Positions 9,130 to 42,369 of a DNA stretch of 60,038 bases are shown one piece after another. The notes beneath the pieces were generated by a model. The model was not told the DNA's origin, did no database searches, and saw only the letters and a program-made list of their open reading frames with translations. The position numbers were made by a program, and so were the translations under genes. Position 1 is the stretch's first letter. Every line of letters begins with the position of its first letter. The stretch is from Streptomyces katrae (GTDB lineage: Bacteria > Actinomycetota > Actinomycetes > Streptomycetales > Streptomycetaceae). The stretch is from assembly GCF_000717655.1 (NCBI RefSeq), contig NZ_JNZY01000039.1, forward strand, positions 1 to 60,038, read 5' to 3'.

Positions 9130-10110
9130 TCAGTTGGCGGTGCGGAAGCGGCGGCGGTACGCCGCCGGGGTCGTGGCGATCTGCTTGCGGAAGGCGCGGT
9201 GCAGGGTCTCCACCGAGCCCAGCCCTGCGGCCGCGGCGACCTGCTCCAGGGGCTGGTCGGTGGTCTCGAGCAGCCGGCGGGCGGCTTCCACCCGTACCGC
9301 CTCCACGTAGGCGGCGGGGCTGGTGCCCAGCTCCTTGCGGAAGATCCGGGCGAAATGGCGCTCGCTCACGGACATCCGGGCCGCGAGGGCGGCCGCGGAG
9401 AGGTCCTCGCCGAGGTGTTCGGTGATGAAGACCCGCAGTGCGTCGATGTCCCTGCGGGAGGCCGCCGGGCGGCTGAGCGGAACGCTGAACTGGCTCTGGC
9501 CGCCCTGCCTCTTGAGGTACATCACCAGCTGCCGGGCGACCCCGAGGGCCAGTTCCTCGCCGTGGTCCTCGGCCACCAGGGCCAGCGTCAGGTCCATGCA
9601 GGCGCTGATCCCGGCCCCGGTCCACACCCGGCCCGACCGGACGAAGATCGGGTCCGGATCGACCTCGACCTGCGGGTGGTCGGCCGCCAGCTGGGCGGCG
9701 GTGGACCAGTGGGTGGTGGCCCTGCGCCCGTCCAGCAGGCCGGCCGCCGCCAGCAGGTGCGCGCCGACGCACACCGACGCCACGCGCCGGGCGTGCGGGG
9801 CGGTGGCGGCGATCCACCGGACCACCTCGTCGTCGACGCGGGCGACCGGGCCGTCCTCCTCCGGCTCGACGGCGCCGGGCACCACGAGGGTGTCCACGGC
9901 GGCGCCGACCTCGGCGAAGGAGAGGTCGGTGACCAGCCGGACGCCGGCCGACGTGGTGACGTGTCCGCCGTCCGGGCCCGCCAGGCGTACGTCGTACAGC
10001 CTGCGCCCGGCCTCCCGGCTCGCGAGGGCGAAGACCTCGGCGGGGCCGGTGACGTCGAGCAGGTCGACATCGGGGAAGACCGCGATCACGACGCGGTGGG
10101 GCGTGGACAT
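9130..10110 (-). CDS. GlxA-family transcriptional regulator (DJ-1/PfpI plus AraC HTH)
   Basis: This 326-residue regulator has an N-terminal DJ-1/PfpI domain (about residues 5-170, nucleophile-elbow cysteine in SVCVGAH) and a C-terminal AraC-type double helix-turn-helix (about 225-322, MSVSERHFARIF and a second helix pair). GlxA-like regulators often control amidase or hydrolase genes, which fits the isochorismatase-like gene downstream. The ATG at 10110 is chosen because the DJ-1 fold begins four residues later. Confidence 0.85.
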   Translation of the reverse strand: MSTPHRVVIAVFPDVDLLDVTGPAEVFALASREAGRRLYDVRLAGPDGGHVTTSAGVRLVTDLSFAEVGAAVDTLVVPGAVEPEEDGPVARVDDEVVRWIAATAPHARRVASVCVGAHLLAAAGLLDGRRATTHWSTAAQLAADHPQVEVDPDPIFVRSGRVWTGAGISACMDLTLALVAEDHGEELALGVARQLVMYLKRQGGQSQFSVPLSRPAASRRDIDALRVFITEHLGEDLSAAALAARMSVSERHFARIFRKELGTSPAAYVEAVRVEAARRLLETTDQPLEQVAAAAGLGSVETLHRAFRKQIATTPAAYRRRFRTAN

Positions 10111-10465
10111 GCGTCCATCCTGGCCTCGCGGCCGCATGTCCGCAATGACGGTTCTCTGTCACATCCGGACAGCAGGGTGCCGACTGGAGCATGCCCCGTG
10201 CGGCGCGGACCCCGGCACCGGACGACGGGAGGCGTCGGATGGGCGGGCTGGACGTACGCATGCGGGGGGTCGCCTGCCGCCACGGCCGGGTCGAGGCGGT
10301 CGCCGAGGTGGATCCGGAGATCGCGGCGGGCGAGCGCGTCGCACGGTCAACAGGCGGGTTCCCATGCCCTGTTGTGGCCTACGACACATGTGGTTTTGTC
10401 CGGTGATGCCAATTCCCGGCGCCCCTCTGCAGCGGCCTCGAGAGGGATGCGACGATGAGCCCGCC
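10111..10465. other. Intergenic region between regulator and Met/His-rich membrane gene
   Basis: Apart from the ABC ATPase remnant at 10239-10406, this stretch shows no gene. The last 100 bases are less GC-rich and may hold the promoter of the next gene; no clear -35/-10 pair could be assigned. Confidence 0.4.
10239..10406 (+). pseudogene. Truncated ABC transporter ATPase remnant
   Basis: An ATG at 10239 with a good GGGAGG ribosome site opens a frame whose first 35 residues read like the start of an ABC ATPase, ending in the GERVA that normally leads into Walker A. The similarity stops at about 10340, just before the nucleotide-binding loop, and the frame ends after about 20 unrelated residues. 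No downstream piece (Walker A, signature, Walker B) follows. I infer a deletion or rearrangement breakpoint near 10340. Confidence 0.55.
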
Positions 10466-11152
10466 ATGACCCAGGGACGATGTCGTCGTGCGGTACGGGC
10501 TGCGATGTTCGCGGCCACCTGCGTGCTGCTCGCCTCTCTCGCCCACATCCTCATGACGGGGACGACGGTCCGCTGGTGGGCCGTGGCGGCGGCCCCGGGC
10601 GCCACCGGCGCGTTCGCCTGGTTCCTCGCCGGGCGCGAACGCGGCCTCCCGGCCGTCATCTCGGCGACGGTCGCCGTCCCGGCCGCACTGCACACCGGGT
10701 TCTCCCCGGCCGAGGCGGCCGTTCAGCCGTCCGCGCCGGTACGCGCCGCCGGCCACGCCCATCGCGCCGCGCACGCGACGACCGACGGCAGCGTGGCCAT
10801 GCACATGCTGATGCAGATGCCGATGCCCGTGCGGATGCCGGTGCGGACGACCGTGCCCGCCGGACACGACCTGGGCTCCGTGTCACCGACCGGCACGCCG
10901 GCCGCGCACCTGCTCGCCGCCCTGCTCTGCGGGCTCTGGCGCGCATCCGGGGAGCGGGGCGCATCCCGGATCCTGCGCGCCGTGGCCGGTCTGCTCCTCG
11001 TACCGCTGCGGCCGCCCCTGCGCCTCCCCGCGCCCCCTCACCGGCCGCGCCCGCGCCCCCGCCGCGGCCTCGGATCGCGCCGTCTGCACGGGCTCTTGCT
11101 TGTCCACGCCCTCACCTCACGGGGTCCGCCCCTCGGGACCGCTGTCAGCTGA
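10466..11152 (+). CDS. Membrane protein with Met/His-rich extracytoplasmic segment
   Basis: This 228-residue protein is of unknown function. Three hydrophobic segments lie in the first 80 residues and two more near 150-180. Between them, about residues 90-125, is a segment with several histidines followed by alternating methionines (MHMLMQMPMPVRMP), a composition seen in copper- or other soft-metal-handling proteins. The C-terminal 45 residues are proline- and arginine-rich. The ECF sigma factor gene starts 162 nt downstream on the same strand, suggesting a functional link. Metal binding is inference from composition only. Confidence 0.6.
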   Translation: MTQGRCRRAVRAAMFAATCVLLASLAHILMTGTTVRWWAVAAAPGATGAFAWFLAGRERGLPAVISATVAVPAALHTGFSPAEAAVQPSAPVRAAGHAHRAAHATTDGSVAMHMLMQMPMPVRMPVRTTVPAGHDLGSVSPTGTPAAHLLAALLCGLWRASGERGASRILRAVAGLLLVPLRPPLRLPAPPHRPRPRPRRGLGSRRLHGLLLVHALTSRGPPLGTAVS

Positions 11153-16800: not shown

Positions 16801-17721
16801 TACGAGCTGGGCGGCGGCTGGATGCGGATCGGCCACTCCGAGATCGGCCGACGGGCGTTCCTCGGCAACTCCGGCATGACCGCGCCGGGCCGCACCGTAC
16901 CGGACGACGGGCTGGTCGGCGTGCTGTCGGCGACCCCGAAGAAGGCCAAGAAGGGCAGTTCGTACCTGGGCCTGCCGCCGGTCCGGCTGCCGCGGTCCGC
17001 GGCCGACGCCGACCGGAGCCGGACGTACGACCCGCCGGCGCGGCTGCTGTGGGCGCGCGGGCTGGTGGAGCTGTGCCGGATGGTCCCGGTGTTCTGCTCG
17101 GCCGCGCTGGCCGTCCTCACCGTGGCGGCGCTCTGCGCGCTGAGCACGGCGAGCGGGCTCGGGACCTGGGAAGCCGCGCTGCTGTCCGGAGTGGTGCTGC
17201 TGAGCGCCGGTGTGGCGGCGGGCGCGGTGTCCGTGGCCGCGAAGTGGCTGCTCGTGGGCCGGCACCGGGCGGGCGAGCACCCGCTGTGGAGCAGCTTCGT
17301 ATGGCGCAACGAGCTGGCCGACACGTTCGTCGAGGTGCTGGCCGTGCCGTGGCTGGCGGGTCCGGTGCCCGGTACGCCGCTGCTGAACCTGTGGCTGCGC
17401 GGGCTCGGGGCGCGGATCGGCCGGGGCGTGTGGTGCGAGAGCTACTGGCTGCCCGAGACGGACCTGGTGGTGCTGGGCGATGCGGTCAGCGTGAACCGTG
17501 GCTGCGTGTTGCAGACACACCTCTTCCACGACCGGATCTTGAGGACGGATACTGTGGTCCTCCGTGAGGGCGCCACCCTGGGCCCGGGCGGAATCGTCCT
17601 GCCCGGAAGCACGGTCGGGGCCCACAGCACACTGGGTCCGGCCTCCCTCGTGATGGCCGGGGAATCCGTCCCCGCCGACACGCGTTGGCTGGGCAACCCG
17701 ATCGAGGCATGGCGGACCTGA
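13816..17721 (+). CDS. Pls/PosA-family single-module NRPS (epsilon-poly-lysine synthetase-like)
   Basis: This 1301-residue membrane NRPS has an adenylation domain at about residues 30-500, then a peptidyl carrier protein (IGGSSLAA, phosphopantetheine serine 552). The remainder alternates membrane helices with three left-handed-beta-helix (hexapeptide) acyltransferase-like blocks near 770-830, 960-1030 and 1198-1298. That is the A-T-TM-C1-TM-C2-TM-C3 plan of Pls, which polymerises lysine through the epsilon amine. Reading the pocket against PheA suggests a code near D-A-E-S-I-G-T-V-V-K; the Glu at the third position would suit a cationic substrate (inference). The product may be epsilon-poly-lysine, another cationic homopolymer or a short amide. 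An M1 peptidase gene follows 37 nt downstream. An ATG at 13843 is an alternative start. Confidence 0.85.
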   Translation: MAATPERGEMTLLDDGDPYDESGKSARFSAGPAAPTRTLVDIFEASVRACPDELALDDGTVRLTYRALAAEVGRRRRALEAAGVGLGDRVGVRVPSGTNELYAAILAVLAAGAAYVPVDAEDPDERAELVFAEAGVRAVLGAGGRIDATGPADAAVPAARPGPEHDAWIIFTSGSTGKPKGVAVSHRSAAAFVDAEAALFLTDEPIGPGDRVMAGLSVAFDASCEEMWLAWRYGACLVPVPRSQVRSGADLGPWLVDQEITVVSTVPTLAALWEPEALNEVRLLIFGGEACPPELTQRLVTEGREVWNTYGPTEATVVACASLLTGEEPIRIGLPLNGWELAVVDESGQPVPMGGSGQLVIGGVGLARYLDPEKDAEKYAPLESLGWKRAYRSGDLVRAEPEGLVFLGRGDEQIKLGGRRIELGEVDAALQALPGVAGAAAAVRTARSGNQLLVGYLVAQEGWDHAAAVERLRAELPAALVPLLAPVDELPTRTSGKVDRDALPWPLPELETTGPAEQLYGTEAWLAEQWSETLGVAVTSAADDFFAIGGSSLAAAQLTTRLRTRYPRAAVLDIYQQPTLRKLARRLEKSVRDDDAARTVVPVPLRTKVVQSLLLLPLFTLVGLRWTVALLALGNALHWFGAYPWAPTASWWFVVPGAALLFSPPGRLAIAAGGARLLLRGVKAGRYPRGGSVHLRLWTAERLAEYVGATSLTGSWLERYARALGAKVGPQVDLHSLPPVTGMLKLGRGSAVESEVDLCGHWLDGDRLEIGPVKVGAGAVVGTRSMLFPGARVGKRAEVAPGSAVVGQIPTGQRWAGAPAVKLGRAKRNWPKERPPRGLPWRAAYGAAGFGLTALPVLATVPALLVVSRFVPAGAGLVEALRGALIALVPGALAYGFTYALLLLVPVRLLSLGLRTGTHPTHSRVGWQAWTVTQLMDLSRETLFPLYAGLITPVWLRLLGMKIGRGAEVSTVLALPSLTTVGEGAFLADDTLTAPYELGGGWMRIGHSEIGRRAFLGNSGMTAPGRTVPDDGLVGVLSATPKKAKKGSSYLGLPPVRLPRSAADADRSRTYDPPARLLWARGLVELCRMVPVFCSAALAVLTVAALCALSTASGLGTWEAALLSGVVLLSAGVAAGAVSVAAKWLLVGRHRAGEHPLWSSFVWRNELADTFVEVLAVPWLAGPVPGTPLLNLWLRGLGARIGRGVWCESYWLPETDLVVLGDAVSVNRGCVLQTHLFHDRILRTDTVVLREGATLGPGGIVLPGSTVGAHSTLGPASLVMAGESVPADTRWLGNPIEAWRT

Positions 17722-17758
17722 CAAGGGCCCGGGCACAGCGCAGGGAGCGGAAGCGGCA

Positions 17759-19165
17759 ATGAGCGGCCAGAGAACAGCGGCATCGGACCCGTACTTCCCG
17801 GACAACGGCGACTCCCGTTACCGCGTGCACCGGTACGAACTCGCTCTGGAGTACCGTCCCGGCCCCAACCGGCTGGCCGGGACGGCCCGGCTCAGTGCGA
17901 TCGCCGGGCGGGCGCCCCTGACCGAGTTCCACCTGAACCTGGCCGAGTTCAAGATAGGGCGGGTCCTGGTGAACGGCCGGGCCCCGCACTACACGCACCG
18001 GGGCGGAAAGCTCCGCATCCGGCCGGCCAAGCCGCTGCCCGCCGGCGCCGCCTTCACGGTGGAGGTGCACTGGGCGGGCAACCCGAAGCCGGTCCGAAGC
18101 CCCTGGGGCGGTCTCGGCTGGGAGGAGCTGAGCGACGGCGCGCTGGTGGCCAGCCAGCCGGTCGGCGCGCCCTCCTGGTACCCGTGCAACGACCGGCCCG
18201 CCGACAAGGCCTCGTACCAGATCTCGGTCAACACCCCGTCCGCCTACACGGTGGTGGCCGGCGGCCGCCTGCTCACCCGGACGACCAAGGCCAGCACGAC
18301 CACCTGGGTGTACGAGCAGTCCGCGCCGACCTCCAGCTACCTGGTCGGGCTGTCCATCGGCATGTACCAGACGGTGCTGCTCGGCGACCCCGGGCTCGGC
18401 GGTGTCCCGCAGAGCGCCCACGTACCGGCGCACCTGCTGCCGAAGTTCTCGCGCGACTTCGCCCGCCAGCCCGCCATGATGCAGCTGTTCGAGGAGCTGT
18501 TCGGGCCCTATCCCTTCGGCGAGTACGCGGTGGTCGTGGCCGACGAGGAACTCGACGTCCCGGTGGAGGCCCAGGGGCTGTCGCTGTTCGGCGCCAACCA
18601 CGTGGACGGCGGGCGCGGTTCGGAGCGCCTCGTCGCCCACGAGCTCGCGCACCAGTGGTTCGGCAACAGCGTGACCATCGCCGACTGGCGGCACATCTGG
18701 CTGAACGAGGGCTTCGCGAAGTACGCCGAGTGGCTCTGGTCGGAGCGCTCCGGCGGCCGCACCGCACACGCGCTGGCCGCCGCTGCACACCGGCTGCTGG
18801 CCTCTCAGCCGCAGGATCTGCGTCTCGTCGACCCGGGCCGCAAGCTGATGTTCGACGACCGCCTGTACCAGCGCGGGGGTCTCGTCCTGCACGCGATCCG
18901 CTGCGCCCTGGGGGACGGCGCGTTCTTCCGCATGCTCCGCGACTGGGCCGCCGTGCACCGCCACGGCGTCGTGACCACTGCGGGCTTCACCCAGCACGTG
19001 GCCCGCTATGCGGGCGAGCCGCTGGACGACCTGTTCTCGGGCTGGCTGTACGAACCGGCCCTCCCGGCGCTGCCCTCGCCGCCCGCGCGGCTGGCGACAC
19101 CGGCGAAGCCGGCGTACCCGCCCACGAACGGCGGGGCCGAGCGCCGCGGCCGGACCTCCGCCTGA
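17759..19165 (+). CDS. M1-family zinc metallopeptidase
   Basis: This is a 468-residue gluzincin of family M1 with the complete zinc site, H294-E295-x2-H298 and E317 eighteen residues on in LNEGFAKYAEW. The canonical GAMEN exopeptidase motif is replaced by VEAQG, as in many actinobacterial members. No signal peptide is visible, so it is probably cytoplasmic. It begins 37 nt after the Pls-like NRPS and is probably cotranscribed with it. Its context suggests hydrolysis or trimming of the NRPS product, as a self-degrading activity for a cationic polymer, but that is inference. The operon ends in a strong hairpin. Confidence 0.85.
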   Translation: MSGQRTAASDPYFPDNGDSRYRVHRYELALEYRPGPNRLAGTARLSAIAGRAPLTEFHLNLAEFKIGRVLVNGRAPHYTHRGGKLRIRPAKPLPAGAAFTVEVHWAGNPKPVRSPWGGLGWEELSDGALVASQPVGAPSWYPCNDRPADKASYQISVNTPSAYTVVAGGRLLTRTTKASTTTWVYEQSAPTSSYLVGLSIGMYQTVLLGDPGLGGVPQSAHVPAHLLPKFSRDFARQPAMMQLFEELFGPYPFGEYAVVVADEELDVPVEAQGLSLFGANHVDGGRGSERLVAHELAHQWFGNSVTIADWRHIWLNEGFAKYAEWLWSERSGGRTAHALAAAAHRLLASQPQDLRLVDPGRKLMFDDRLYQRGGLVLHAIRCALGDGAFFRMLRDWAAVHRHGVVTTAGFTQHVARYAGEPLDDLFSGWLYEPALPALPSPPARLATPAKPAYPPTNGGAERRGRTSA

Positions 19166-19225: not shown

Positions 19226-19693
19226 TCAGCCGGCTGCCTTGCGCATGTGCGCCTCGGCGCGCTGATCGAACTCGTCCGGCGGCACGTCCTCGATGTGGGT
19301 GGCTATCGTCCACCGGTGGCCGAACGGGTCGATGACCTGTCCCGCCCGGTCGCCGAAGAAGTGGTCCTGGACTTCTCGCTGCTGCTTCGCGCCGGCCCGC
19401 AGGGCACGGGCGAAGGTGGCGTCGACGTCCTCGACGAACAGGTACAGCGTGACCGGGGTACCGCCGACGGAGTGGGGGCCGAGCAGGCCGGCTTCCCGCA
19501 GCTCGTCGGACAGCATCACGATCGTGCCGCCGATCCGGATCTGTGCGTGCATGATCTTGCCGTTGGGAGCGGTGGAGCGGGCCAGTTCCTTCGCACCGAA
19601 GGCCTCGGTGTAGAAGTCGATCGCCTCGCTCGCCCCGTCGACGGACAGGTAGGCCGTCAGCTCCGCGTACCCGTCCGGTATTGCTTTGACCAT
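19226..19693 (-). CDS. VOC-family (PhnB/glyoxalase-like) protein
   Basis: This 155-residue protein has the vicinal-oxygen-chelate fold as seen in PhnB-like and bleomycin-resistance-like proteins: an AAF-type start (AIDFYTEAFGAKEL), a middle MLSDEL segment and the closing DPFGHRW motif. It is the last gene of the six-gene minus-strand operon and begins 22 nt after the aminotransferase. It could be a self-resistance binding protein or a metal-dependent tailoring enzyme; the sequence does not decide. A GAGG ribosome site precedes the ATG. Confidence 0.8.
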   Translation of the reverse strand: MVKAIPDGYAELTAYLSVDGASEAIDFYTEAFGAKELARSTAPNGKIMHAQIRIGGTIVMLSDELREAGLLGPHSVGGTPVTLYLFVEDVDATFARALRAGAKQQREVQDHFFGDRAGQVIDPFGHRWTIATHIEDVPPDEFDQRAEAHMRKAAG

Positions 19694-19715
19694 TCTTGAC
19701 CTCCGTGATCTTCGA

Positions 19716-20780
19716 TTACTTGCGGGTGGTGAGCTCGTCGAGTGCGTCGAGGAAGCTGCGCAGCTCCTCCTCCGTACCGAGCGATACGCGCAGGTGGCCG
19801 GGGAAACCGAACAGGCCCGTGTCCCGCACGAGAATCCCGTACTCCTTGGCCAGGGCGTCCTGCGCCTCCCGGGAGGCGTCGACCCGGACGGCGACGAAGT
19901 TCGTCACCGACGGCAGGTACCGGTACCCGCGCCGCTCCAGCTCCGCGGTGAACCACGCGCGCCGCTGCGCGGTGCCCGTGCGGATCTCGCCGAGGAACTC
20001 CTGGTCGGCGAGTGCGGCCAGTGCGCCGGCCTGTGCGACCCGGTTGACGCTGAACGGAAGAACGTTCAGCGTCCGGCGGACCTCGGCGATGAGATCGGCC
20101 CGGCCGACGGCATAGCCGATCCGCAGGGCCGCCAGTCCGTACGCCTTGGAGAAGGTGCGCAGCGCCACCACCGGGGCGCCGCGGTCGAGGAAGTCCCTCG
20201 TCTGCGGCAGGCCCGGGTCGCTGAACTCCTGGTACGCCTCGTCGAAGACCAGCGGGACCCCGCCGGCCTGCGCCGCGTCGACCAGAGTGGCGTACGCCTC
20301 CTCCGGAAGCGCGGTTCCGGAGGGGTTGTGCGGGTTGCACACGTACCCGATGCCGTGCTCGGGCAGCGCGTCCGCGAACTCCTTGACATCGAGGGCACCG
20401 TCGCGCAGGGGCAGCGCGACGGCCCCGCGGCCGATGCGTTCCAGGGATTCCGGGTAGCCCGGGAACGTACCGGCGGCGACCAGACCGGGCCGGGAGAGGT
20501 CGCCGAGCGTCAACGCGGTCGCCAGCACCAGCTCGTCGCTGCCGTTGGCCACGGCGATCTGGTCCTCGGACACGCCCCAGTGCCCGGCGAGGGCCTTGAC
20601 GAGGCCCTCCCGCTGCGGCGCGGGGTAGCGGTTGACCCGTTCCAGTGCTCCGGCGGCCGCGGCGACGGCTGCCGGGCTCGCCCCGTAGGGGCTCTCGCTC
20701 AGGTGCAACCGCACCATCGTGTCCGCATCCGGAACGCTGGTGTTGTAGACCTTCGGCTCCGGCCGGGCGGGCGCACTCAC
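19716..20780 (-). CDS. HisC-like PLP aminotransferase of the beta-methyl amino acid cassette
   Basis: This 354-residue fold-type-I aminotransferase is similar to histidinol-phosphate aminotransferase. PLP-site features: NPHNPSG at 149-155, D180 in VFDEAY, and the Schiff-base lysine K212 in TFSKAYGL. It starts with GTG in a four-base GTGA overlap with the cupin gene, which itself overlaps the methyltransferase, so the three are translationally coupled. The same trio (aminotransferase, cupin, methyltransferase) makes (2S,3S)-beta-methyltryptophan in the maremycin (MarG/H/I) and streptonigrin (StnQ1/K3/R) pathways. I therefore infer that this enzyme interconverts an aromatic amino acid and its 2-oxo acid before and after methylation. 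A primary histidine-biosynthetic role is unlikely in this setting. Confidence 0.85.
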   Translation of the reverse strand: MSAPARPEPKVYNTSVPDADTMVRLHLSESPYGASPAAVAAAAGALERVNRYPAPQREGLVKALAGHWGVSEDQIAVANGSDELVLATALTLGDLSRPGLVAAGTFPGYPESLERIGRGAVALPLRDGALDVKEFADALPEHGIGYVCNPHNPSGTALPEEAYATLVDAAQAGGVPLVFDEAYQEFSDPGLPQTRDFLDRGAPVVALRTFSKAYGLAALRIGYAVGRADLIAEVRRTLNVLPFSVNRVAQAGALAALADQEFLGEIRTGTAQRRAWFTAELERRGYRYLPSVTNFVAVRVDASREAQDALAKEYGILVRDTGLFGFPGHLRVSLGTEEELRSFLDALDELTTRK

Positions 20781-21157
20781 AGCTGGGATCCCAACAGGAT
20801 CCCGAAGCAGTAACTCCCGACCGCTGCTTCCCTGGTGACGAAGCAGTGCTCACTGCCCGCCGGGATGCGCATCACGGCCGGCGAGGTCAGTTCGTGAAGG
20901 ACCCCGTCGAGATGGACCTCGATGCGCGCCTGGCCGGGGAGCGGCGAGACGAGGAAGTAGATCTCGTCGACCTCGTGGGTGTGCGGTGCGGCCACCGGCT
21001 TGTCCACGAGCGTGCTGAGCTCACCACCCGCGATCTGCACCGGCATCCCGCCGAACATGTCCGCCGTGAGGTAGAAGGGCGCGGGCTGGTGGTGCCCCGC
21101 CACCGCGAGCGGGATGGGAAGGCCGGAGACGATCTCGGGGGCGGCCGTGCGGCTCAC
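20777..21157 (-). CDS. Cupin protein of the beta-methyl amino acid cassette
   Basis: This 126-residue single-domain cupin carries metal ligands H59, H61, E65 and H104 in HTHEVDE and PAGSEHCF. In maremycin and streptonigrin biosynthesis a small cupin (MarH, StnK3) works with the methyltransferase and aminotransferase to set the stereochemistry at the beta carbon, probably by enolisation of the beta-methyl 2-oxo acid. I infer the same role. GTGA overlaps on both sides couple its translation to its neighbours. Confidence 0.8.
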   Translation of the reverse strand: MSRTAAPEIVSGLPIPLAVAGHHQPAPFYLTADMFGGMPVQIAGGELSTLVDKPVAAPHTHEVDEIYFLVSPLPGQARIEVHLDGVLHELTSPAVMRIPAGSEHCFVTREAAVGSYCFGILLGSQL

Positions 21158-22191
21158 GCTGCCTCCAGCACGAAGAGATAGGTGTGCGGCGCACCGAAGG
21201 GCACCGCGCGTCGGAGATGCATGCCTCCCTTGTCGAAGAGTTCCTCGTACTGCTCACGCGTGTAGATGGGGACGCCCATCAGGGCGTGGGCCAGTTCGAA
21301 CCCGCTGGAGAACACCGGCAGGGTGCTCTCGCCGCCCCGCGGCCGCACCGTGGTGTCGCCCAGCAGGAACGTGTTGGCCTTGGGGAAGGCCGCACGCAGC
21401 CGGGGGATCACCTCGTCGCGGCGGGTCGGGTCGACCAGCAGGTCGTGCAGGAACATGAAGCTCATCACGACGTCGGCCTCGTCGGCGCCCTCGACCCGCT
21501 GCCCGTTGAACAGGATGTCGAGTACGTCCGCGCACACCGGCTCGACGGTGCCCTTGAGGCCGTACCGGTCGACGGTGTCGGCCCCGAGTTCGGTGGCGGA
21601 CTTGCTGATGTCGATACCGAGTCCGCGGCTTCCCGGGCGGGCCTTGACCAGCCGGGAGACCCGCTCGCTGACGCCGGCGCCGAGGTCGACGAGGGTCGTG
21701 AAGTCGAGCCTGGAGATCTCGTCGTCCAGGATGTGCCGCATGAGGGCGGTGTCCGCCTGCGCCGAGCCGAGGGCCACCATCCCCTCGTCGCGGTGGAGGT
21801 CGACGCCGAAGCGGCGCTCCCCGCGGGCGACGGAGGCGGCGTTCGCGAAGACGTCGTGGTAGCCGCCGACGCCCCAGGTGAAGAAGCCCAGCTTCTGGCG
21901 GGCCTCCTCACCGGTCCGGGTCGCCCGGACGCGGTCGCCGTGCGCCTCCACGTACCCGAAGGACTCCGCGGCGCGGATCAGGGAGCGGAAGACGGCCTCG
22001 TCCAGGCCGTTCTCCCGGCAGAACGGGGCCACGTCGGCGGAACCGTCGTCCTGCAGTGTGCGGAACAGGCCCAGGCGCTCCAGTGCGTGCAGCACGTGCG
22101 CACAGATGAAGCCGTTGAAAGCGGTGTCGGGGTTCAGTGGCGTCGGCGCCTCGCCGAGCCATTGTGCGGTCGATGTGTCTACCGGCGGCAT
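21154..22191 (-). CDS. SAM-dependent methyltransferase, probable 2-oxo acid C-methyltransferase
   Basis: This 345-residue class I methyltransferase has an N-terminal winged-helix dimerisation region (about residues 25-95) and a SAM site with DLGAG at 169-173 and GIDIS at 192-196. The two-domain layout and length resemble the MppJ/MarI/StnR type that methylates the beta carbon of phenylpyruvate or indolepyruvate. Its place next to a cupin and an aminotransferase supports C-methylation of a 2-oxo acid over simple O-methylation, although an O-methyltransferase cannot be excluded. It begins 67 nt after the flavoenzyme stop. Confidence 0.8.
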   Translation of the reverse strand: MPPVDTSTAQWLGEAPTPLNPDTAFNGFICAHVLHALERLGLFRTLQDDGSADVAPFCRENGLDEAVFRSLIRAAESFGYVEAHGDRVRATRTGEEARQKLGFFTWGVGGYHDVFANAASVARGERRFGVDLHRDEGMVALGSAQADTALMRHILDDEISRLDFTTLVDLGAGVSERVSRLVKARPGSRGLGIDISKSATELGADTVDRYGLKGTVEPVCADVLDILFNGQRVEGADEADVVMSFMFLHDLLVDPTRRDEVIPRLRAAFPKANTFLLGDTTVRPRGGESTLPVFSSGFELAHALMGVPIYTREQYEELFDKGGMHLRRAVPFGAPHTYLFVLEAA

Positions 22192-22258
22192 CGTCTACAC
22201 CTCTCGGGAATGCGGCGGGCGGGCCCTGGGGGCGCCGCCCACCGCGAGACTGACGTGG

Positions 22259-23386
22259 TCAGAACGCCTCGAGCCGGGCCAGGTTGAGGCCCAGCGAGTA
22301 CGGGGTGAGGTCGACGCTCGGCTGCCGGCCCTGGTACAGGTCGCGGATGATCTGGCCGGCGAGCGGCGCCTGCGCCAGTCCGTGGCCGGTGAAGCCGGCG
22401 GCGTAGAAGATCCGCTCGTGCTGACCGGTGCCCTTGCCGATGATGGCCGACTTCGTCGGCGTGACGTCCAGGCTCCCGGTCCACGCGCTGTAGAGCTTGA
22501 CGCCCTCCAGCTGCGGGTACCACTTCGGCAGCTCGTCGACGGCCGCCTGGTACCAGATGTCCCGCAGCCCGTCCTGCTTGGAGATGCGCTCCAGGCCGAC
22601 CAGGAAGGCCTTGCCCATTCCCATCGTCTTCAGCCCGGACACGGGGTGGAAGGTGAACGGGGAGTTGTGCACGTCGCGGTCGGTGCGGATCGCGTCGGTG
22701 TGCAGCAGCTCGGCGAACTGCCCCCATACCGGCAGGTCCAGGCCGGTCAGCTTGGCGACGTCGCCGCTCCACGGTCCGGCCGCGATGACGATCGCGTCGG
22801 CGGTGAAGTCGCCCGCCGTCGTGTTGACCACGCCGCTGTCGCCGTCCAGGCCGGTCACGGCGACGTTGGAGAACAGCCGGGCGCCGTGCTGCTTCGCGGC
22901 CTCGGCGTACCCCTGGACGATCAGCTCGGGCTTGATGCGGTACGTGTCCGGGTTCCAGACCGCGGCCTCGATCGTGTCGGGGTCCAGCCACGGGTTGAGT
23001 TCGACCGCCTGGGCGGCGGTGAGCATCTCCACCGCTGCTCCGGCCTCGCGGTGGTCCGCCAGGTCCGCCTCGAGCTCGGCCGCCTGCTGCGGGCTGGTCA
23101 GGATCGTCAGCAGCCCGAGGTTCTGCAGCCCGACGTCGACGCCCATGGTCGCGGAGAACTGCTTGTATTCGGCGAGGCTGCGCGTCGCCATCTCGGAGTC
23201 GTGCGGCTTGCGGGGGAAATAGGTACGGAATGCGCGCGCGGTCTGCGAAGTGGTCGCGGCACCGAACTGGTTCTTCTCCACGAGGACGACGTCGATGCCC
23301 GCCTTCGCCGCGTGGTAGGCGATGGAAGTGCCGATCACCCCTCCGCCGATGACCAGCATTTCCGCCGTGTTCTTCTGCTCAGACAT
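22259..23386 (-). CDS. FAD-dependent oxidoreductase of the DAO / N-methyltryptophan-oxidase family (intact copy)
   Basis: This is a 375-residue amine-oxidising flavoenzyme. The FAD-binding parts are intact: GxGxxG at G14-G16-G19, the ribose-binding acid E37 in LVEKNQ, and the AAGPWS loop at 202-207. No cysteine occurs at the position used by monomeric sarcosine oxidase for covalent flavin, so FAD is probably non-covalent. Family members oxidise secondary amines and cyclic imino acids, which would suit a Pictet-Spengler-type ring. It overlaps the end of the cucumopine-synthase-like gene by eight bases and has an AAGGAG ribosome site. A close but degenerate paralogue lies at 24642-25745. Confidence 0.85.
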   Translation of the reverse strand: MSEQKNTAEMLVIGGGVIGTSIAYHAAKAGIDVVLVEKNQFGAATTSQTARAFRTYFPRKPHDSEMATRSLAEYKQFSATMGVDVGLQNLGLLTILTSPQQAAELEADLADHREAGAAVEMLTAAQAVELNPWLDPDTIEAAVWNPDTYRIKPELIVQGYAEAAKQHGARLFSNVAVTGLDGDSGVVNTTAGDFTADAIVIAAGPWSGDVAKLTGLDLPVWGQFAELLHTDAIRTDRDVHNSPFTFHPVSGLKTMGMGKAFLVGLERISKQDGLRDIWYQAAVDELPKWYPQLEGVKLYSAWTGSLDVTPTKSAIIGKGTGQHERIFYAAGFTGHGLAQAPLAGQIIRDLYQGRQPSVDLTPYSLGLNLARLEAF

Positions 23387-24344
23387 TCGTGCTCCTTGCA
23401 ACGTTCGGACGGTAGGTCCATTCGTCTCCCGTGAGATCCCACGGGAACAGCTGCAGATTCCACGCACCGAGGGCGTTGACGTACGTCGCCATCTGCGCCA
23501 TCAAAGCGACGAATTCTTCCCGGGTGGTGATGACGTCCAGTGCGGCCACCACCTCCTTGGTGATGTCCCAGAGGGTGTTCATTCCGCAGTAGCCCAGGAA
23601 CTCGGTGGGCTTCACCAGCAGGATCTTGGCCAGTTCGACCAGCGACGGGAACGGCATGTCGATCTTCCGGCCGGCCCGCACCAGGGTGGTGTAGTTCACG
23701 TAGCCGAGCGGCCGCGTCTCGCCGTTCACGGCGACCAGGGTCGTGAGGACCGAGTTCTTCGTCCCGGCGCCGGAGGTGCCCCGCGACTTGCCCTCGTGGA
23801 TGTCCACCAGTTCGTCGGTCGGGTCGACCAGCACCCGCTCGGTCTCCGCGGCGATCTTCTCGATCAGCTCACGGACCAGCTCGGACTCGGCGGCGAGCCG
23901 CTGCACGCCCTGGCCGGCCGGCCCGTCCACCCGACGCACGTGGGCGATCACGGGCACGCCGTTGCCGTGGACGGATTCCCAGACCAGCTGACCGATCTTC
24001 GGCAGCAGGTCGACGTCCTCCGGCACGACGTGGCCGATCGGCGAGGTCGGCATCGGCTCGGTGAGCTCGCCGTACTTGATGGTCAGGTGCTGCACGGGGG
24101 AAAGGAACACCGTGCCATTGGGCTGGATCTTGCGATTCACCTTGTAATCCGGAACCGCGTGCAGCAAGTCGTGCGCCGGCGGCACGTGGTACATGCAGTC
24201 GCCGGCCACGAGCGCATGCCCCTGGAGGGTCGTGTACGGCAAAGCCGCCCACAACGGCTCCACAAGTTCGGCGTTGCGCCCCTCGAGGAGGGTGACGCGA
24301 ACCTTGGCGCCGATCGGCTCCCAGGAAATCTCGATTTGCCGCAT
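23379..24344 (-). CDS. Cucumopine-synthase-like protein (cyclophilin-like fold plus helical bundle)
   Basis: This 321-residue protein resembles the cucumopine/mikimopine synthase family: an N-terminal cyclophilin-like (DUF3830-type) half (residues 1-125) with a conserved stretch around SPVQHLTIKYGELTEPMPTSP, then a C-terminal helical half. Agrobacterium cucumopine synthase condenses histidine with 2-oxoglutarate into a ring-closed opine, a Pictet-Spengler-type product. As the first gene of the operon, ahead of flavoenzyme, methyltransferase, cupin and aminotransferase, it is the best candidate for the scaffold-forming step. The assignment is from remembered family features, not a search. The ATG at 24344 has an AGGAG ribosome site. 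Confidence 0.65.
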   Translation of the reverse strand: MRQIEISWEPIGAKVRVTLLEGRNAELVEPLWAALPYTTLQGHALVAGDCMYHVPPAHDLLHAVPDYKVNRKIQPNGTVFLSPVQHLTIKYGELTEPMPTSPIGHVVPEDVDLLPKIGQLVWESVHGNGVPVIAHVRRVDGPAGQGVQRLAAESELVRELIEKIAAETERVLVDPTDELVDIHEGKSRGTSGAGTKNSVLTTLVAVNGETRPLGYVNYTTLVRAGRKIDMPFPSLVELAKILLVKPTEFLGYCGMNTLWDITKEVVAALDVITTREEFVALMAQMATYVNALGAWNLQLFPWDLTGDEWTYRPNVARSTNV

Positions 24345-24555
24345 TGTGCTCCTACCTCTAATCGGGGTTGGAATACGAGCGACGGCCACGCTGCCGTCGT
24401 AAATCGAATATACGAATGGCGACTTTCGATCGGCCGACAGGGGGCACTTTTATGTCACATTGCCGATTCCCTGTCACTTCGCACGACCCCGCCGATTCTC
24501 GGGAATTCGGAATTCCGATTCCAGAAATGCAGAATTCCCGGATTCTCGTGAAAAA
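24345..24555 (-). promoter_or_regulatory. Promoter region of the biosynthetic operon with nested palindromes
   Basis: This stretch is clearly less GC-rich than its surroundings. It contains CGGGAATTC at 24500-24508 mirrored by GAATTCCCG at 24532-24540, with a further palindrome, CGGAATTCCG, at 24508-24517. Two GTGACA direct repeats (minus strand) and a TATATT element, possibly the -10 box, lie nearer the gene. A regulator binding the palindromes probably controls the six-gene operon; none can be named. Confidence 0.5.
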
Positions 24556-24595
24556 CACATGGCCGCCGCACTGTGGACAGTGCGGCGGCCATGTG
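24556..24595 (-). terminator. Intrinsic terminator of the second flavoprotein gene
   Basis: This is a perfect 19-base inverted repeat (CACATGGCCGCCGCACTGT and its complement, two bases between), followed on the minus strand by TTTTT. It lies 46 nt after the stop of the 24642-25745 gene and separates that transcript from the six-gene operon. Confidence 0.85.
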
Positions 24596-24641
24596 GGCGG
24601 GCCCCGGGCCGGCAGCGGCACGGGGGTGAAGTCGTGGCGGA

Positions 24642-25745
24642 TCAGGCCCCGTTGCGGGCGAGCGAGAACGGCGTGAGGTCGACGCCGGGGTGCCGGCCGA
24701 GGTGGAGGTCCCGAATGATCTTGCCGGTGGCGGGCGCCTGGCCGAGTTCGTGACCGGTGAAGCCGGTGGCGAACAGGATGCGTTCGTGCGGGCCGCCCGC
24801 CCTGCCGATCAGAGCGCTCCTGGAGGGCGTGACGTCGAGGGTTCCGGTCCATGCGCTGTGCAGCGTGACGTCCCGCAGGCGCGGGTACCGCTGCGCCACC
24901 TCGTCCATGGCCGCCTCGTGCCAGATGTCCCGCATGCCCGGCTTCCGGGAGAAGCGCTCGAGGCCCACCAGGAAGGACGGCCCCATCCCCATCGTCTTCA
25001 GTCCGGCTGCGGGGTGGAAGGTGAACGGCGACGCGACGTCGCCGTCGCCGACCGGGTCGGTGTGGAACAGCTCGGCGAACTGGCCCCACACGGGGAGCTC
25101 GAAGCCGGTCAGCGCGGCGATGTCACCGCTGCCGGACTCGTCCGCGAGGACGATCGCCTCCGCGGTGAAGTCACCCGCCGTGGTGGCGACCTGGCCGCAT
25201 GACGCGTCCAGCCCCGTCACGGTGGCGCCGGTGACCAGGCGCGCGCCGTGCTTCTGCGCGCCTTCGGTGTAGCCCCGGAGCACCTCGTCCGCCCTGAGGC
25301 GGATCATCTGCGGGCACCAGAGCGCCGCTTCGACACCGGCCGGGTCCAGCCAGGGGTTGCGCTCGACGGCCTGCGCCGCGGTCAGCAGCTCCAGCTGCAC
25401 ACCGGCATCCCGCTGGGCGGGCACCTCCGCCAGCAGCTCGGCCGCCTCGTCCGCGGTGGCCGCCACCACGAGCATCCCGGTCTGCGTCACCTCGAGTTCG
25501 GCGCCGGTGGTGGCACCGAACGAACGGAAATCGGCGAGGCTGCGTGCGACCAGTTCGGAGTCGTACACGCGCCCGGGAAAATAGGTGCGGAATGCGCCGG
25601 CGGTCTGCGTCGCGGTGGCACCGGGCTGATCCCGTCCCAGCACGACGACGTCGACGCCCGCTTCCGCGCAGTGGTATGCGACGGACATCGCGACCACTCC
25701 GGTACCGATGACCAGCAATTCCGCCGTGTTCTTCTGCTCAGACAT
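24642..25745 (-). CDS. DAO-family flavoprotein paralogue with degenerate FAD site
   Basis: This 367-residue protein is a clear full-length paralogue of the 22259-23386 flavoenzyme; both start MSEQKNTAE. The three flavin-contact features kept in the intact copy are altered here: the third glycine of GxGxxG is alanine (A19), the ribose-binding acid is glycine (G37), and AAGPWS reads ADESGS (201-206). The substrate-side segments, such as AFRTYFP and AWTGTLDVTPS, remain conserved and the frame is intact. I infer a flavin-poor partner subunit or a protein evolving a new role rather than a dead gene. It has its own terminator, so it is transcribed separately from the operon. Confidence 0.85.
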   Translation of the reverse strand: MSEQKNTAELLVIGTGVVAMSVAYHCAEAGVDVVVLGRDQPGATATQTAGAFRTYFPGRVYDSELVARSLADFRSFGATTGAELEVTQTGMLVVAATADEAAELLAEVPAQRDAGVQLELLTAAQAVERNPWLDPAGVEAALWCPQMIRLRADEVLRGYTEGAQKHGARLVTGATVTGLDASCGQVATTAGDFTAEAIVLADESGSGDIAALTGFELPVWGQFAELFHTDPVGDGDVASPFTFHPAAGLKTMGMGPSFLVGLERFSRKPGMRDIWHEAAMDEVAQRYPRLRDVTLHSAWTGTLDVTPSRSALIGRAGGPHERILFATGFTGHELGQAPATGKIIRDLHLGRHPGVDLTPFSLARNGA

Positions 25746-25920
25746 CCGCAATCTCCGTAACGTGGCCTGCCCGCGTCGGCCCGGAATTCGAACAGCCGAG
25801 TACGCCGAGTGGTGGTGTGGCCGACGGAGTGCAGCATGGAAGCCGACGCGGAGCCGTACGGGGAAAAATGGCGCGGGTCTGTCAAGTCAACGGGCTGCCC
25901 CGCCCCCGAGTTGACGAACA

Positions 25921-25959
25921 GTCCGCCTCTTCGTCGGCTGCTGCGCCGAAGAGGCGGAC
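25921..25959 (-). terminator. Hairpin downstream of the VOC gene
   Basis: Perfect 13-base arms (GTCCGCCTCTTCG and its complement) surround a 13-base loop. It lies 31 nt after the VOC stop and ahead of the degenerate flavoprotein gene. It has no T tract. Confidence 0.7.
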
Positions 25960-25990
25960 CATGTCGCACATGAGGACAGCTGCCCCGCAC

Positions 25991-26335
25991 CTACTTCTTG
26001 AGCGGCGCCTGGAGGCTCCAGACGCGCCCGTCGGGGTCGCGCACCTTCATCTCCTGCGTTCCGTAGTGGGTCTCCTCGAACGGCGCGACCACCTCGACGG
26101 ACGGGTCGACCGTGAACTCGCCGGCGTCCCCCACCCGCAGGACGACCTGGAAGTCGGGCTTCTGGTCCTCGGGGATCTCGGCGAGCAGCAGGTAGGGGCC
26201 GTCCCCGTTGCGGAGCATCCCCGAGCCCTCCTCGGTCGCGAACTCGACGTTGTAGCCCAGCGACTGGAAGAACTTGGCCGCCTTGCCCCAGTTATGGGTC
26301 TCGAGGTACACGCCTTCGACACCTTCGGTGCTCAT
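25991..26335 (-). CDS. VOC-family (glyoxalase/bleomycin-resistance-like) protein
   Basis: This 114-residue protein has a single VOC unit: [18 protein letters not shown] at the start and the closing [10 protein letters not shown] motif. Such proteins bind or modify small molecules and often give self-resistance. Its ATG overlaps the stop of the ribbon-helix-helix gene in an ATGA junction, so the two are translationally coupled. It is unlike the second VOC protein at 19226. Confidence 0.8.
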
Positions 26336-26502
26336 GCCTGCTTTCCTTTCCGCGGTTCCTGCTCGTGTACGGCGAGATACGTGCGCAACGCCTCGGCGAC
26401 CAGGGCCGAGAGCGACGACTCGTTCTCGATTGCATGGTGCTTGATCTGCCGGATGAGTTCCACCGGCAAGTAGACGTTGAACTGCTTTACCTCTGCACGC
26501 AT
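26332..26502 (-). CDS. Small ribbon-helix-helix transcriptional regulator
   Basis: This 56-residue protein has the ribbon-helix-helix pattern: a short strand (KQFNVYLP) followed by two helices ([13 protein letters not shown], then [14 protein letters not shown]). A perfect 14-bp palindrome, GGATGCTAGCATCC, begins five bases upstream of its ATG, as expected for autoregulation. It is coupled to the VOC gene and divergent from the DHA2 exporter, so it probably represses both transcripts. The gene is easily missed because of its size. Confidence 0.75.
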
Positions 26503-26506
26503 ACTA

Positions 26507-26520
26507 GGATGCTAGCATCC
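26507..26520. promoter_or_regulatory. Palindromic operator between regulator and exporter
   Basis: The perfect 14-bp palindrome GGATGCTAGCATCC lies between the divergent ribbon-helix-helix gene and the MFS gene. Its position over the regulator's own start region suggests autoregulation and joint control of the exporter. Confidence 0.65.
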
Positions 26521-26581
26521 GAGCGCTCGTCCAACTAGGGCCGATCGAACAAGAGTTACGAACCGAGGAGGACTCCCCACA

Positions 26582-28153
26582 ATGAAACGCCAATGGTGGA
26601 CGCTGCTGGTGGTGTGCGCCGCCACGTTCATGCTGCTGCTGGACGTCACGATCGTCGCGGTCGCGCTCCCCGACATCCAGCACTCGCTGGACGCGAGCTT
26701 CAGCGGCCTGCAATGGACGACGGATGCCTACGCGTTAAGCCTGGCGGCACTCCTGCTCACCTCGGGCTCCCTGGCCGACCTGTACGGCAGGCGGCGCCTG
26801 TTCGTCATCGGGCTGGCGGTCTTCACCGCAGGATCGCTGCTGTGCGGCATCGCGCAGGACCAGCTGATGCTGATCCTGTCCCGCGCGGTGCAGGGGATCG
26901 GCGGCGCGATCCTGTTCGCCACCTCCCTGGCGCTGCTCGCCGGCACGTTCCAGGGCAGGGAGCGGGGCTCGGCCTTCGGCATCTGGGGCGCCGTCGCCGG
27001 TGTCGCCACCGCGCTGGGCCCGGTGCTCGGCGGTGTGATCACCAGCGGGATCAGCTGGCGCGGCATCTTCCTGGTGAACCTTCCGATCGGTATCGCCGCG
27101 ATCTTCATCACGCTGCGCCTCGTCGACGAGTCCCGTCCGCCGCGCGCCTCCAAGATCGACTGGCTGGGCATCGTGCCGCTCACGGCGGGCCTGTTCAGCC
27201 TGGTGTACGCCCTCATCAGGGCGAGCGACACGGCATGGGGCGAACAGGGCGTGCTGATCTGCTTCGGCCTGGCCGCGGTGTTCCTCGCGGCGTTCGCCGT
27301 GATCGAATCGCGCGTGTCCGAGCCGATGTTCGACCTGAAGCTGCTGCGCACCCCGACCTTCCTGGGCGGCTCGATCGCCGCCTTCGCCATGAACGCCTCG
27401 CTGTTCGCGATGTTCATCTACCTCGTGCTGTACCTGCAGAACGACCTCGGCTACAGCGCGATGGGCACCGGCGCCCGGCTCCTGGTGAGCTCCGGCTGCA
27501 CGCTCGTCGCCGCCATGGCGGCCGGCCGCCTCATGAGCAAGGTCCCGACCCGGTGGCTGATCGGCCCCGGCCTGGTCATCGTGGGGGTCGGCCTCCTGCT
27601 CATGACGGGGGTCTCCGCCGACTCCGACTGGACCCACCTCATCCCGGGGTTCATCGTCACGGGCATCGGGGCCGGCATGGTCAACCCGCCGCTGGCCTCC
27701 ACCGCGATCGGTGTCGTCCCGGTGTGGCGCGCCGGAATGGCGTCCGGCGTGAACCAGACCTTCCGGCAGGTGGGCATCGCCGTCGGCATCGCCGTGTACG
27801 GCTCGCTCTTCACCGCGTCGCTGCACGACGCCCTGAGGGAGCGGCTCGCGAACATCCCGGCACTGCAGGGGCAGAGCGACCGGATCGCCGACTCGATCCG
27901 CATGGGCTCTCCCGGGCAGGCGATCGCCTCGGCCCCGGCGGAGTTCCGGGGAGAGGTCCAGCACGCGGTCCAGGCCGGCTTCGCGACGTCGATGAACGAC
28001 CTGCTGGTCGTGAGCGGCATCGTGGCGCTGGTCGGCGGCGTCCTGGCTTTCGCCCTCATCCGCAGCAAGGACTTCGTCGCACCCCAGGGCGGCCCCGGCC
28101 AGCAGGCCCGGCCGCCCCAGGCCCAGAACACGGAGGCCCCGCAACCGCGCTGA
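26582..28153 (+). CDS. DHA2-type MFS drug/metabolite exporter with a TTA codon
   Basis: This is a 523-residue exporter of the DHA2 (14-helix, EmrB-like) family. It has the motif-A region LADLYGRRR near residue 63 and the family LDVTIVAVALPDI in helix 1. It probably exports the cluster product. A GGAGGA ribosome site precedes the ATG. Codon 52 (26735-26737) is TTA, read in Streptomyces only by the bldA tRNA, so translation should be linked to differentiation; I saw no other in-frame TTA in neighbouring genes. The proline/glutamine-rich C-terminus is probably unstructured. A hairpin follows the stop. Confidence 0.9.
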   Translation: MKRQWWTLLVVCAATFMLLLDVTIVAVALPDIQHSLDASFSGLQWTTDAYALSLAALLLTSGSLADLYGRRRLFVIGLAVFTAGSLLCGIAQDQLMLILSRAVQGIGGAILFATSLALLAGTFQGRERGSAFGIWGAVAGVATALGPVLGGVITSGISWRGIFLVNLPIGIAAIFITLRLVDESRPPRASKIDWLGIVPLTAGLFSLVYALIRASDTAWGEQGVLICFGLAAVFLAAFAVIESRVSEPMFDLKLLRTPTFLGGSIAAFAMNASLFAMFIYLVLYLQNDLGYSAMGTGARLLVSSGCTLVAAMAAGRLMSKVPTRWLIGPGLVIVGVGLLLMTGVSADSDWTHLIPGFIVTGIGAGMVNPPLASTAIGVVPVWRAGMASGVNQTFRQVGIAVGIAVYGSLFTASLHDALRERLANIPALQGQSDRIADSIRMGSPGQAIASAPAEFRGEVQHAVQAGFATSMNDLLVVSGIVALVGGVLAFALIRSKDFVAPQGGPGQQARPPQAQNTEAPQPR

Positions 28154-41980: not shown

Positions 41981-42369
41981 GACCGCGGACCGTTCACGCC
42001 GGCATGCCCGGTCCGGTGTGAACGTGGACTGACGACCGTCCGCCTCGGCGCCTGAGCCGAGTGCGTCCCCGATCTCCTGCTGCCAGTACGTGACCGTGAG
42101 CGAGCTGTCGTAGTACACACCGGCGGCCGGCAGTTCCCCCTCGGCGGCGACGGATGGGTCAAGGCGGGGACGACCATTCGCTGACCAGGTGCGACCGGGC
42201 GGGTACCCGGAGCGCACGGCCCGCGGCGTCCCGGGCCGGCCCCGGGCCGGGGCCCCGGGGATCCCCGCGGCGTCCCGGGGCGGTCCCGGACGATCGAACA
42301 TACGATGGGCGGGAACCGGCGCGGGCGCCCCGCCCGGCTGCCCGCCCAGACCACTCGGGGTGGAGACGT
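41981..42369. other. Intergenic region with GC-rich repeats and a possible gene fragment
   Basis: Two 15-bp direct copies of CCGCGGCGTCCCGGG (42221-42235 and 42265-42279) flank a strongly self-complementary GC tract. On the minus strand near 42020-42120 is a short peptide-like stretch containing VYYDSSLT, faintly like the GVYYGSSLT of the neighbouring reductase. It may be a decayed fragment. No complete gene is seen. Confidence 0.35.

Follow-up and report, generated by a model that had tools for sequence, protein, structure and literature searches.

A streptonigrin-type gene cluster in Streptomyces katrae, probably reduced by deletion to its tryptophan half

Introduction

In the streptonigrin/lavendamycin (stn) pathway of Streptomyces flocculus, which leads to an antitumour antibiotic, methylation by StnQ1, epimerisation by StnK3 and transamination by StnR are described as giving (2S,3S)-beta-methyltryptophan, which StnK2 is said to incorporate into lavendamycin (PMC4742848); StnK2 is a Pictet-Spenglerase (PMC7955054); a flavin adenine dinucleotide (FAD) oxidoreductase, StnP2, belongs to the same system (PMC4742848, PMC7955054). 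Here we describe a locus of this type in Streptomyces katrae. The DNA analysed, hereafter the window, is one complete contig (C39) of 60,038 bases from a genome of 8.58 Mb in 151 contigs, and carries a six-gene operon in which a methyltransferase, a cupin and an aminotransferase stand with a predicted Pictet-Spenglerase and a flavoprotein, DAO1. An earlier note on this DNA had presented the gene combination as possibly new, a view that has to be given up, as streptonigrin is already described as joining StnQ1/K3/R to StnK2 (PMC4742848, PMC7955054). Compared with stn, however, the window locus lacks the quinoline/4-aminoanthranilate genes, which appear to have been deleted, and its retained exporter/VOC2 end is fused to the gene of a second flavoprotein, DAO2. 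The locus is, in our view, likely to represent what remains of a streptonigrin/lavendamycin-type pathway once its linked quinoline half was deleted, namely the tryptophan (carboline) half.

Other described systems share parts of this locus. MarI, MarH and MarG of maremycin biosynthesis are the corresponding methyltransferase, cupin and aminotransferase for (2S,3S)-beta-methyltryptophan (PMC4742848), but lead to a diketopiperazine, whereas the window cassette is joined to a Pictet-Spenglerase. McbB of marinacarboline biosynthesis, described as joining tryptophan with oxaloacetaldehyde, has the same full-length fold and domain order as the window enzyme; it differs in that the three genes named in the cited passage include no beta-methyl cassette (PMC7024544). 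The proposed pyridindolol cluster has a Pictet-Spenglerase followed by an FAD oxidoreductase similar to StnP2, but its gene table shows a CoA ligase and an aldehyde dehydrogenase and no beta-methyl cassette; the same passages report that the cluster was not found in antiSMASH output (PMC7955054). No description of the short form of the locus, with cassette and Pictet-Spenglerase but without the quinoline block, was found in the literature titles, abstract openings and passages, mostly non-subscription, that were searched. The parts are already known from streptonigrin; the new point is a deletion-derived, selected half-cluster.

Results

Six minus-strand genes, running from position 24344 down to 19226, form the operon. 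They encode the Pictet-Spenglerase (23379..24344), DAO1 (22259..23386), an S-adenosylmethionine (SAM)-dependent C-methyltransferase (21154..22191), a cupin epimerase candidate (20777..21157), a pyridoxal phosphate (PLP)-type aminotransferase (19716..20780) and, last, a VOC protein of the glyoxalase/bleomycin-resistance fold (19226..19693; PF00903, 2.7e-16). Neighbouring genes overlap by 4–8 bases at three of the five junctions and are separated by 67 and 22 bases at the other two. The operon as proposed in the earlier note is borne out by gene calls and profile matches, all the genes it named are present, and, as it had stated, none in the operon is a nonribosomal peptide synthetase (NRPS) or polyketide synthase (PKS) gene.

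In order to place the operon among its relatives, we used a homology search with the Pictet-Spenglerase (120 of 186 relatives listed), a scan of species genomes from which 80 of 109 confirmed loci were kept, and a sample of 392 genomes of the genus that includes the window's own (G000). Six relatives were widened to 36–60 kb, giving seven widened loci with the window. The synteny search that the earlier note had suggested for the six proteins returned the order Pictet-Spenglerase, DAO1, methyltransferase, cupin, aminotransferase, VOC in 8 of the 80 loci (seven Streptomyces and one Sciscionella) and in all seven widened loci of the genus. PF18631, the Pictet-Spenglerase family, occurs in 30 of the 392 genomes, seven of which, the window's included, are of the window type. 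Because the same order recurs in 8/80 loci and 7/392 genomes, the six-gene set is more than a chance association.

Four of the six widened relatives (G295, G259, G080 and G233) are long forms, which carry stnI, J, H2, K1, L, M1, M2, N and M3-like genes in cis; a stnH1-like gene is also present in three of them. Stn names in the window and its relatives were assigned by family, gene order and published descriptions rather than by direct comparison with Stn, Mar or nyb sequences. The block consists of 4-aminoanthranilate/quinoline genes in streptonigrin gene order, as that order appears from the GenBank numbers given for eight stn genes (PMC6265801) and from the stn-type syntenies shown in a second source (PMC11206028). 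The block is followed by a ParB-like gene, then DAO2 and the operon, with an extra MFS gene between the last two in G295 and G233. The short forms, namely the window and G331, which is from a second species, have only the exporter, a regulator, VOC2, DAO2 and the operon. Beyond these ten genes, the flanks of G331 (26 kb) and of the window (50 kb) have a single family in common, of 769/777 aa, at a 42% threshold.

The window retains a scar at the position where the block would be expected (25732..25938, minus strand). Window bases 25938–25775 match G295 3723–3883 (72% over 165 columns, 2e-18), which comprise the stnI upstream region and the first 17 or 21 stnI codons, depending on which in-frame ATG is the start. 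The adjoining bases, 25774–25732, match G295 25511–25554 (84% over 44 columns, 6e-7), a stretch that leads up to DAO2 and takes in its start. These two places lie 21.6 kb apart in G295, and G331 switches between them at the identical G295 bases (G331 316/317). The three other long forms gave no nucleotide-level match to the scar like that of G295. The stnH1-like gene, which lies between VOC2 and the stnI upstream region in G295, is also absent from the short forms. A Pictet-Spenglerase tree pairs the two short forms as sisters (100/99) and places this pair with the long forms L010 and L011 (92/84); the sister group holds more long forms. One 21.6-kb deletion in a common ancestor of both short forms would best explain these sequences, and it is because of this deletion, as the scar shows, that the window has no quinoline block. 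Two further ideas about the scar were dropped. Both short forms differ from G295 at the second in-frame ATG of stnI (3833), but the window has an equivalent of the first (3821), so the stnI stub could not be called a stub without a start codon. A GTCAAC...TTGAC repeat lies 5' of stnI in four long-form loci and in the scar; since it is absent, as the same pattern, from contig C43 of the window's genome (see below), G331 and G368, it does not link them through a shared operator.

We compared the ten retained genes of the window with those of G331 by the Nei-Gojobori method. Synonymous divergence (dS) was 0.28–0.46, and the ratio of nonsynonymous to synonymous divergence (dN/dS) was 0.108–0.309: MFS exporter 0.289, regulator 0.121, VOC2 0.309, DAO2 0.289, Pictet-Spenglerase 0.203, DAO1 0.263, methyltransferase 0.266, cupin 0.108, aminotransferase 0.272 and VOC 0.237. 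Under strong GC bias this method should overstate rather than understate dN/dS. The same comparison of two long forms (nine genes) gave 0.18–0.45, and the short-form values do not lie above these. None of the ten reading frames is interrupted. The two short forms split after the deletion, so that the differences between them date from the time since then. Low dN/dS in all ten genes over that time therefore indicates that the half-cluster has been kept by selection and is very probably doing something; having been preserved, it probably makes a compound.

Cucumopine synthase, after which PF18631 is named, acts on histidine and 2-oxoglutarate. The 321-aa product of 23379..24344 matches this family (3.5e-35) and its model has a cyclophilin-like domain, so its placement in the cyclophilin-like/cucumopine family by the earlier note stands, as does the idea of a Pictet-Spengler-type ring closer. 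Its closest match is nonetheless McbB. The best solved relative is 3x27 (7e-71 over residues 1–308), described as McbB with tryptophan. An AlphaFold2 model built from 25 sequences (predicted local distance difference score 84.8, predicted template modelling (TM) score 0.86) superposed on 3x27 with TM scores of 0.86/0.89 over 304 columns at 41–42% identity. The model has the full-length McbB architecture, a cyclophilin-like domain followed by a C-terminal helical bundle; KslB chains align over only ~140 columns, and a related chain, 9uwb, has the two domains in reverse order. McbB R72, H87 and E97, which we take to be the catalytic residues, correspond to R71, H86 and E96, kept in the window protein and in all eight relatives aligned. 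By sequence and model, then, the "cucumopine-synthase-like" protein is classed as a tryptophan Pictet-Spenglerase of the McbB/StnK2 type. It differs from cucumopine synthase in resembling the tryptophan branch, and points to beta-methyltryptophan and a 4-methyl-beta-carboline rather than to histidine chemistry.

The methyltransferase, cupin and aminotransferase belong to the expected families and are adjacent, in the order of a beta-methyltryptophan cassette. The methyltransferase is closest to MppJ (4kib, 1.2e-31), and matches the 2-ketoarginine methyltransferase profile TIGR04543 at 4.1e-18, under its cut-off. The cupin, which has no Pfam or NCBIfam match, is identical at 101 of 120 positions to 7eqk (1e-66) and at 104 of 125 to 6j4b (1.7e-65). 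Both entries carry only a cupin name in the database; we take 6j4b to be MarH, which the literature search did not confirm. The aminotransferase (PF00155, 2.4e-51) scores 236.9 bits against TIGR01141 (hisC), under the cut-off of 276.6, and matches 4r2n, a putative phenylalanine aminotransferase, at 6.7e-36; it occupies the StnR/MarG position. The trio thus looks like a beta-methyl aromatic amino acid cassette of the MarI/H/G and StnQ1/K3/R kind, as the earlier note had proposed.

A DAO1-like gene lies directly downstream of the Pictet-Spenglerase gene in 75 of the 80 loci. Three of the exceptions (L052, L060 and L073) have no DAO1-like gene, and two (L064 and L070) have one elsewhere. The pair is therefore a common unit, and DAO1 (PF01266, 7.7e-61; StnP2-like by position) most likely acts on the Pictet-Spengler product. 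This agrees with the oxidation step proposed before. In L060, on a contig labelled Burkholderia multivorans WS-FJ9, the Pictet-Spenglerase (9596–10528; 45% identical) may reflect either transfer or contamination.

DAO2 (24642..25745, minus strand; PF01266, 4.4e-44) is a divergent paralogue of DAO1. In an alignment, the third glycine of its GxGxxG motif is alanine in seven of eight copies and the second glycine of its GHG motif is changed in all eight, whereas both are kept in all nine DAO1 proteins. DAO2 therefore looks impaired as a flavoenzyme. With its dN/dS of 0.289 it is a conserved, selected paralogue with altered flavin motifs, possibly a pseudo-oxidase partner.

The window's genome also holds quinoline genes elsewhere. 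Contig C43 carries, at 82.2–126.8 kb (L144–L147), homologues of stnH1, I, J, H2, K1, L, M1, M2, N and M3 that are 60–73% identical to the cis copies and interleaved with other genes. The set also includes a molybdopterin oxidoreductase, an arylamine N-acetyltransferase-family protein and a berberine-bridge-type oxidase. In G331, matches to the quinoline genes lie on several contigs other than that of the operon. The idea that the C43 locus is the missing half relocated was set aside, as two observations speak against it: its StnK1 groups with those of G278, G250, G361 and G017, four genomes without a PF18631 match, and not in the clade formed by the four cis copies (95/97), and its I-J-H2-K1-L block is 86% identical to blocks that lie in one piece in G278 and in two adjacent pieces in G250. 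By partial rpoB, the window's genome falls beside G278 and G012, whereas G331 falls beside G250; G012 has a 70% match to part of a C43-type locus only, and G017 lies elsewhere in the tree. The C43-type locus thus appears largely to follow a species clade, and for that reason its co-occurrence with the operon is not independent.

At 1e-30 the StnK1 family was too common to serve as a marker (325 of 392 genomes). Counted by hand at ≥68% identity among the matches listed in score order, StnK1-like proteins occur in ~37 of the 392 genomes and in six of the seven cassette genomes (Fisher p 3e-6), a co-occurrence that says little about a pathway acting in trans because four of the six have StnK1 in cis. 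The seventh, G368 (L128–L130), has the operon without the block and shares its right-hand flanking genes with the long forms; five quinoline genes of C43, used as queries against its genome, returned one single-gene match of 71% and short pieces. Its locus possibly serves another quinoline-less product. All six cassette genomes that have quinoline genes, two short and four long forms, also have the exporter family F9, and G368 lacks it, a weak hint at a quinoline-bearing product. When the nine block proteins were compared with the 80 Pictet-Spenglerase loci (flanks ≤10 kb, some ended by contig ends), matches were found in six, five of them cassette loci; Pictet-Spenglerases therefore commonly stand without quinoline genes nearby. 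The Pictet-Spenglerase locus of Nonomuraea spiralis (L020), which has no beta-methyl cassette, has stnM2-like (57%) and stnN-like (59%) genes in its flank.

The remaining retained genes lie beyond the scar. VOC2 (25991..26335, minus strand) belongs to a family found in all seven widened loci; its name comes from the earlier note, and Pfam and NCBIfam profile searches gave no match. A small regulator of 56 aa (26332..26502, minus strand), judged by eye to be ribbon-helix-helix-like, and the divergent DHA2-type MFS exporter (26582..28153, plus strand; TIGR00711, 2.5e-79, 267 bits, over the cut-off; family F9) each belong to families found in six of the seven. The second flavoprotein, VOC2, regulator and exporter described as standing alongside the operon are thus all present, but DAO2 is probably a transcription unit of its own, because a terminator-like hairpin with an 18-pair stem and a TTTTT tail (24595–24556, minus strand) lies 3' of it, before the operon. 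Two terminator-like sites were found between them against a shuffle mean of 1.9, no excess, so the argument rests on the length of the stem. A sigma-70 promoter scan of the region found none. TGACA repeats 5' of the Pictet-Spenglerase gene (window ~24345–24500), which recur by eye in G331, G295 and G259, are perhaps a regulator site.

On the other side, the left flank (17000–19161, with the end of an M1 peptidase gene) is 87% identical to G004 and G015, and because neither has PF18631 the operon looks like an accessory insert adjoining conserved chromosome. A plasmid origin was considered and set aside, with a single partial match covering 6% of the query. Farther away, the protein at 42154–44046 fuses a response-regulator receiver domain to a pyridine-nucleotide-disulphide oxidoreductase.

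Discussion

The gene families, gene order, fold, scar and selection since the deletion are observed, and each reaction proposed here is modelled on characterised homologues. The aminotransferase would convert L-tryptophan to indolepyruvate, the methyltransferase would add the beta-methyl group, and the cupin would invert the new centre before the aminotransferase yields (2S,3S)-beta-methyltryptophan. The Pictet-Spenglerase would then condense this amino acid with an aldehyde to a 4-methyl-tetrahydro-beta-carboline-3-carboxylate, DAO1, the proposed aromatising enzyme, would oxidise the ring, and the resulting 4-methyl-beta-carboline would be exported by the MFS pump. Because the aldehyde sets the C-1 substituent, it determines the product: a small 4-methyl-beta-carboline in one case, a lavendamycin-like compound built by two loci together in the other. 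Several points weigh against this scheme: every reaction leans on homologues, and the Stn names on family, order and published descriptions; DAO2, with its altered motifs, looks more like a part in decay than one at work; and a scan of 20 of the 42 proteins called elsewhere in the window, roughly half, showed no obvious aldehyde-forming enzyme.

The half-cluster may work alone, joining beta-methyltryptophan to a small aldehyde of the host to give a simple 4-methyl-beta-carboline; the oxopropaline class would fit. We place this just short of an even chance. In its favour are the selection that has acted on all ten genes after the deletion, the many Pictet-Spenglerase loci with no block proteins nearby and G368, which has the cassette and little sign of quinoline genes; the proposed pyridindolol cluster is a published case without such genes, as its gene table stands (PMC7955054). 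The lack of an aldehyde source in the part of the window scanned counts against it, and so does the exporter family, missing only in the one widened genome without quinoline genes. Alternatively, the pathway may be split, with C43 making a quinoline aldehyde that is joined at the window operon to give a lavendamycin-like compound. This is a tentative possibility to which we give somewhat less credence. The ten stn-type homologues on C43, the matches on other contigs of G331 and the StnK1 count speak for it, the last weakened by the copies in cis; the grouping of C43 StnK1 with genomes that lack PF18631, the dependence of the locus on the species clade and the absence from C43 of the repeat found 5' of long-form stnI speak against it. 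More doubtful still is the fuller proposal that the 21.6-kb deletion struck a lineage already owning a separate quinoline locus, so that the Pictet-Spenglerase would join unlinked, differently inherited modules in a natural combinatorial streptonigrinoid pathway.

Decay to a remnant without any product would account for the large deletion, the truncated stnI stub in both short forms and the altered motifs of DAO2. We regard it as improbable, since ten open frames have been kept at dN/dS values no higher than in the long forms. Least credible is the idea favoured in the earlier note, that beta-methylhistidine is closed with a 2-oxo acid: it draws on the family name of PF18631 and the histidine substrate of cucumopine synthase, whereas the best structure and sequence match is McbB with bound tryptophan and the operon order is that of the streptonigrin tryptophan pathway.

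A streptonigrin-type pathway cut back to one building half, kept by selection and bearing an exact scar, sets the carboline and quinoline modules apart. It offers a ten-gene target without NRPS or PKS genes whose predicted 4-methyl-beta-carboline core would be accessible to mass spectrometry. It thereby lets one ask whether StnK2-type enzymes naturally accept non-quinoline aldehydes, or whether the pathway runs from two unlinked loci.

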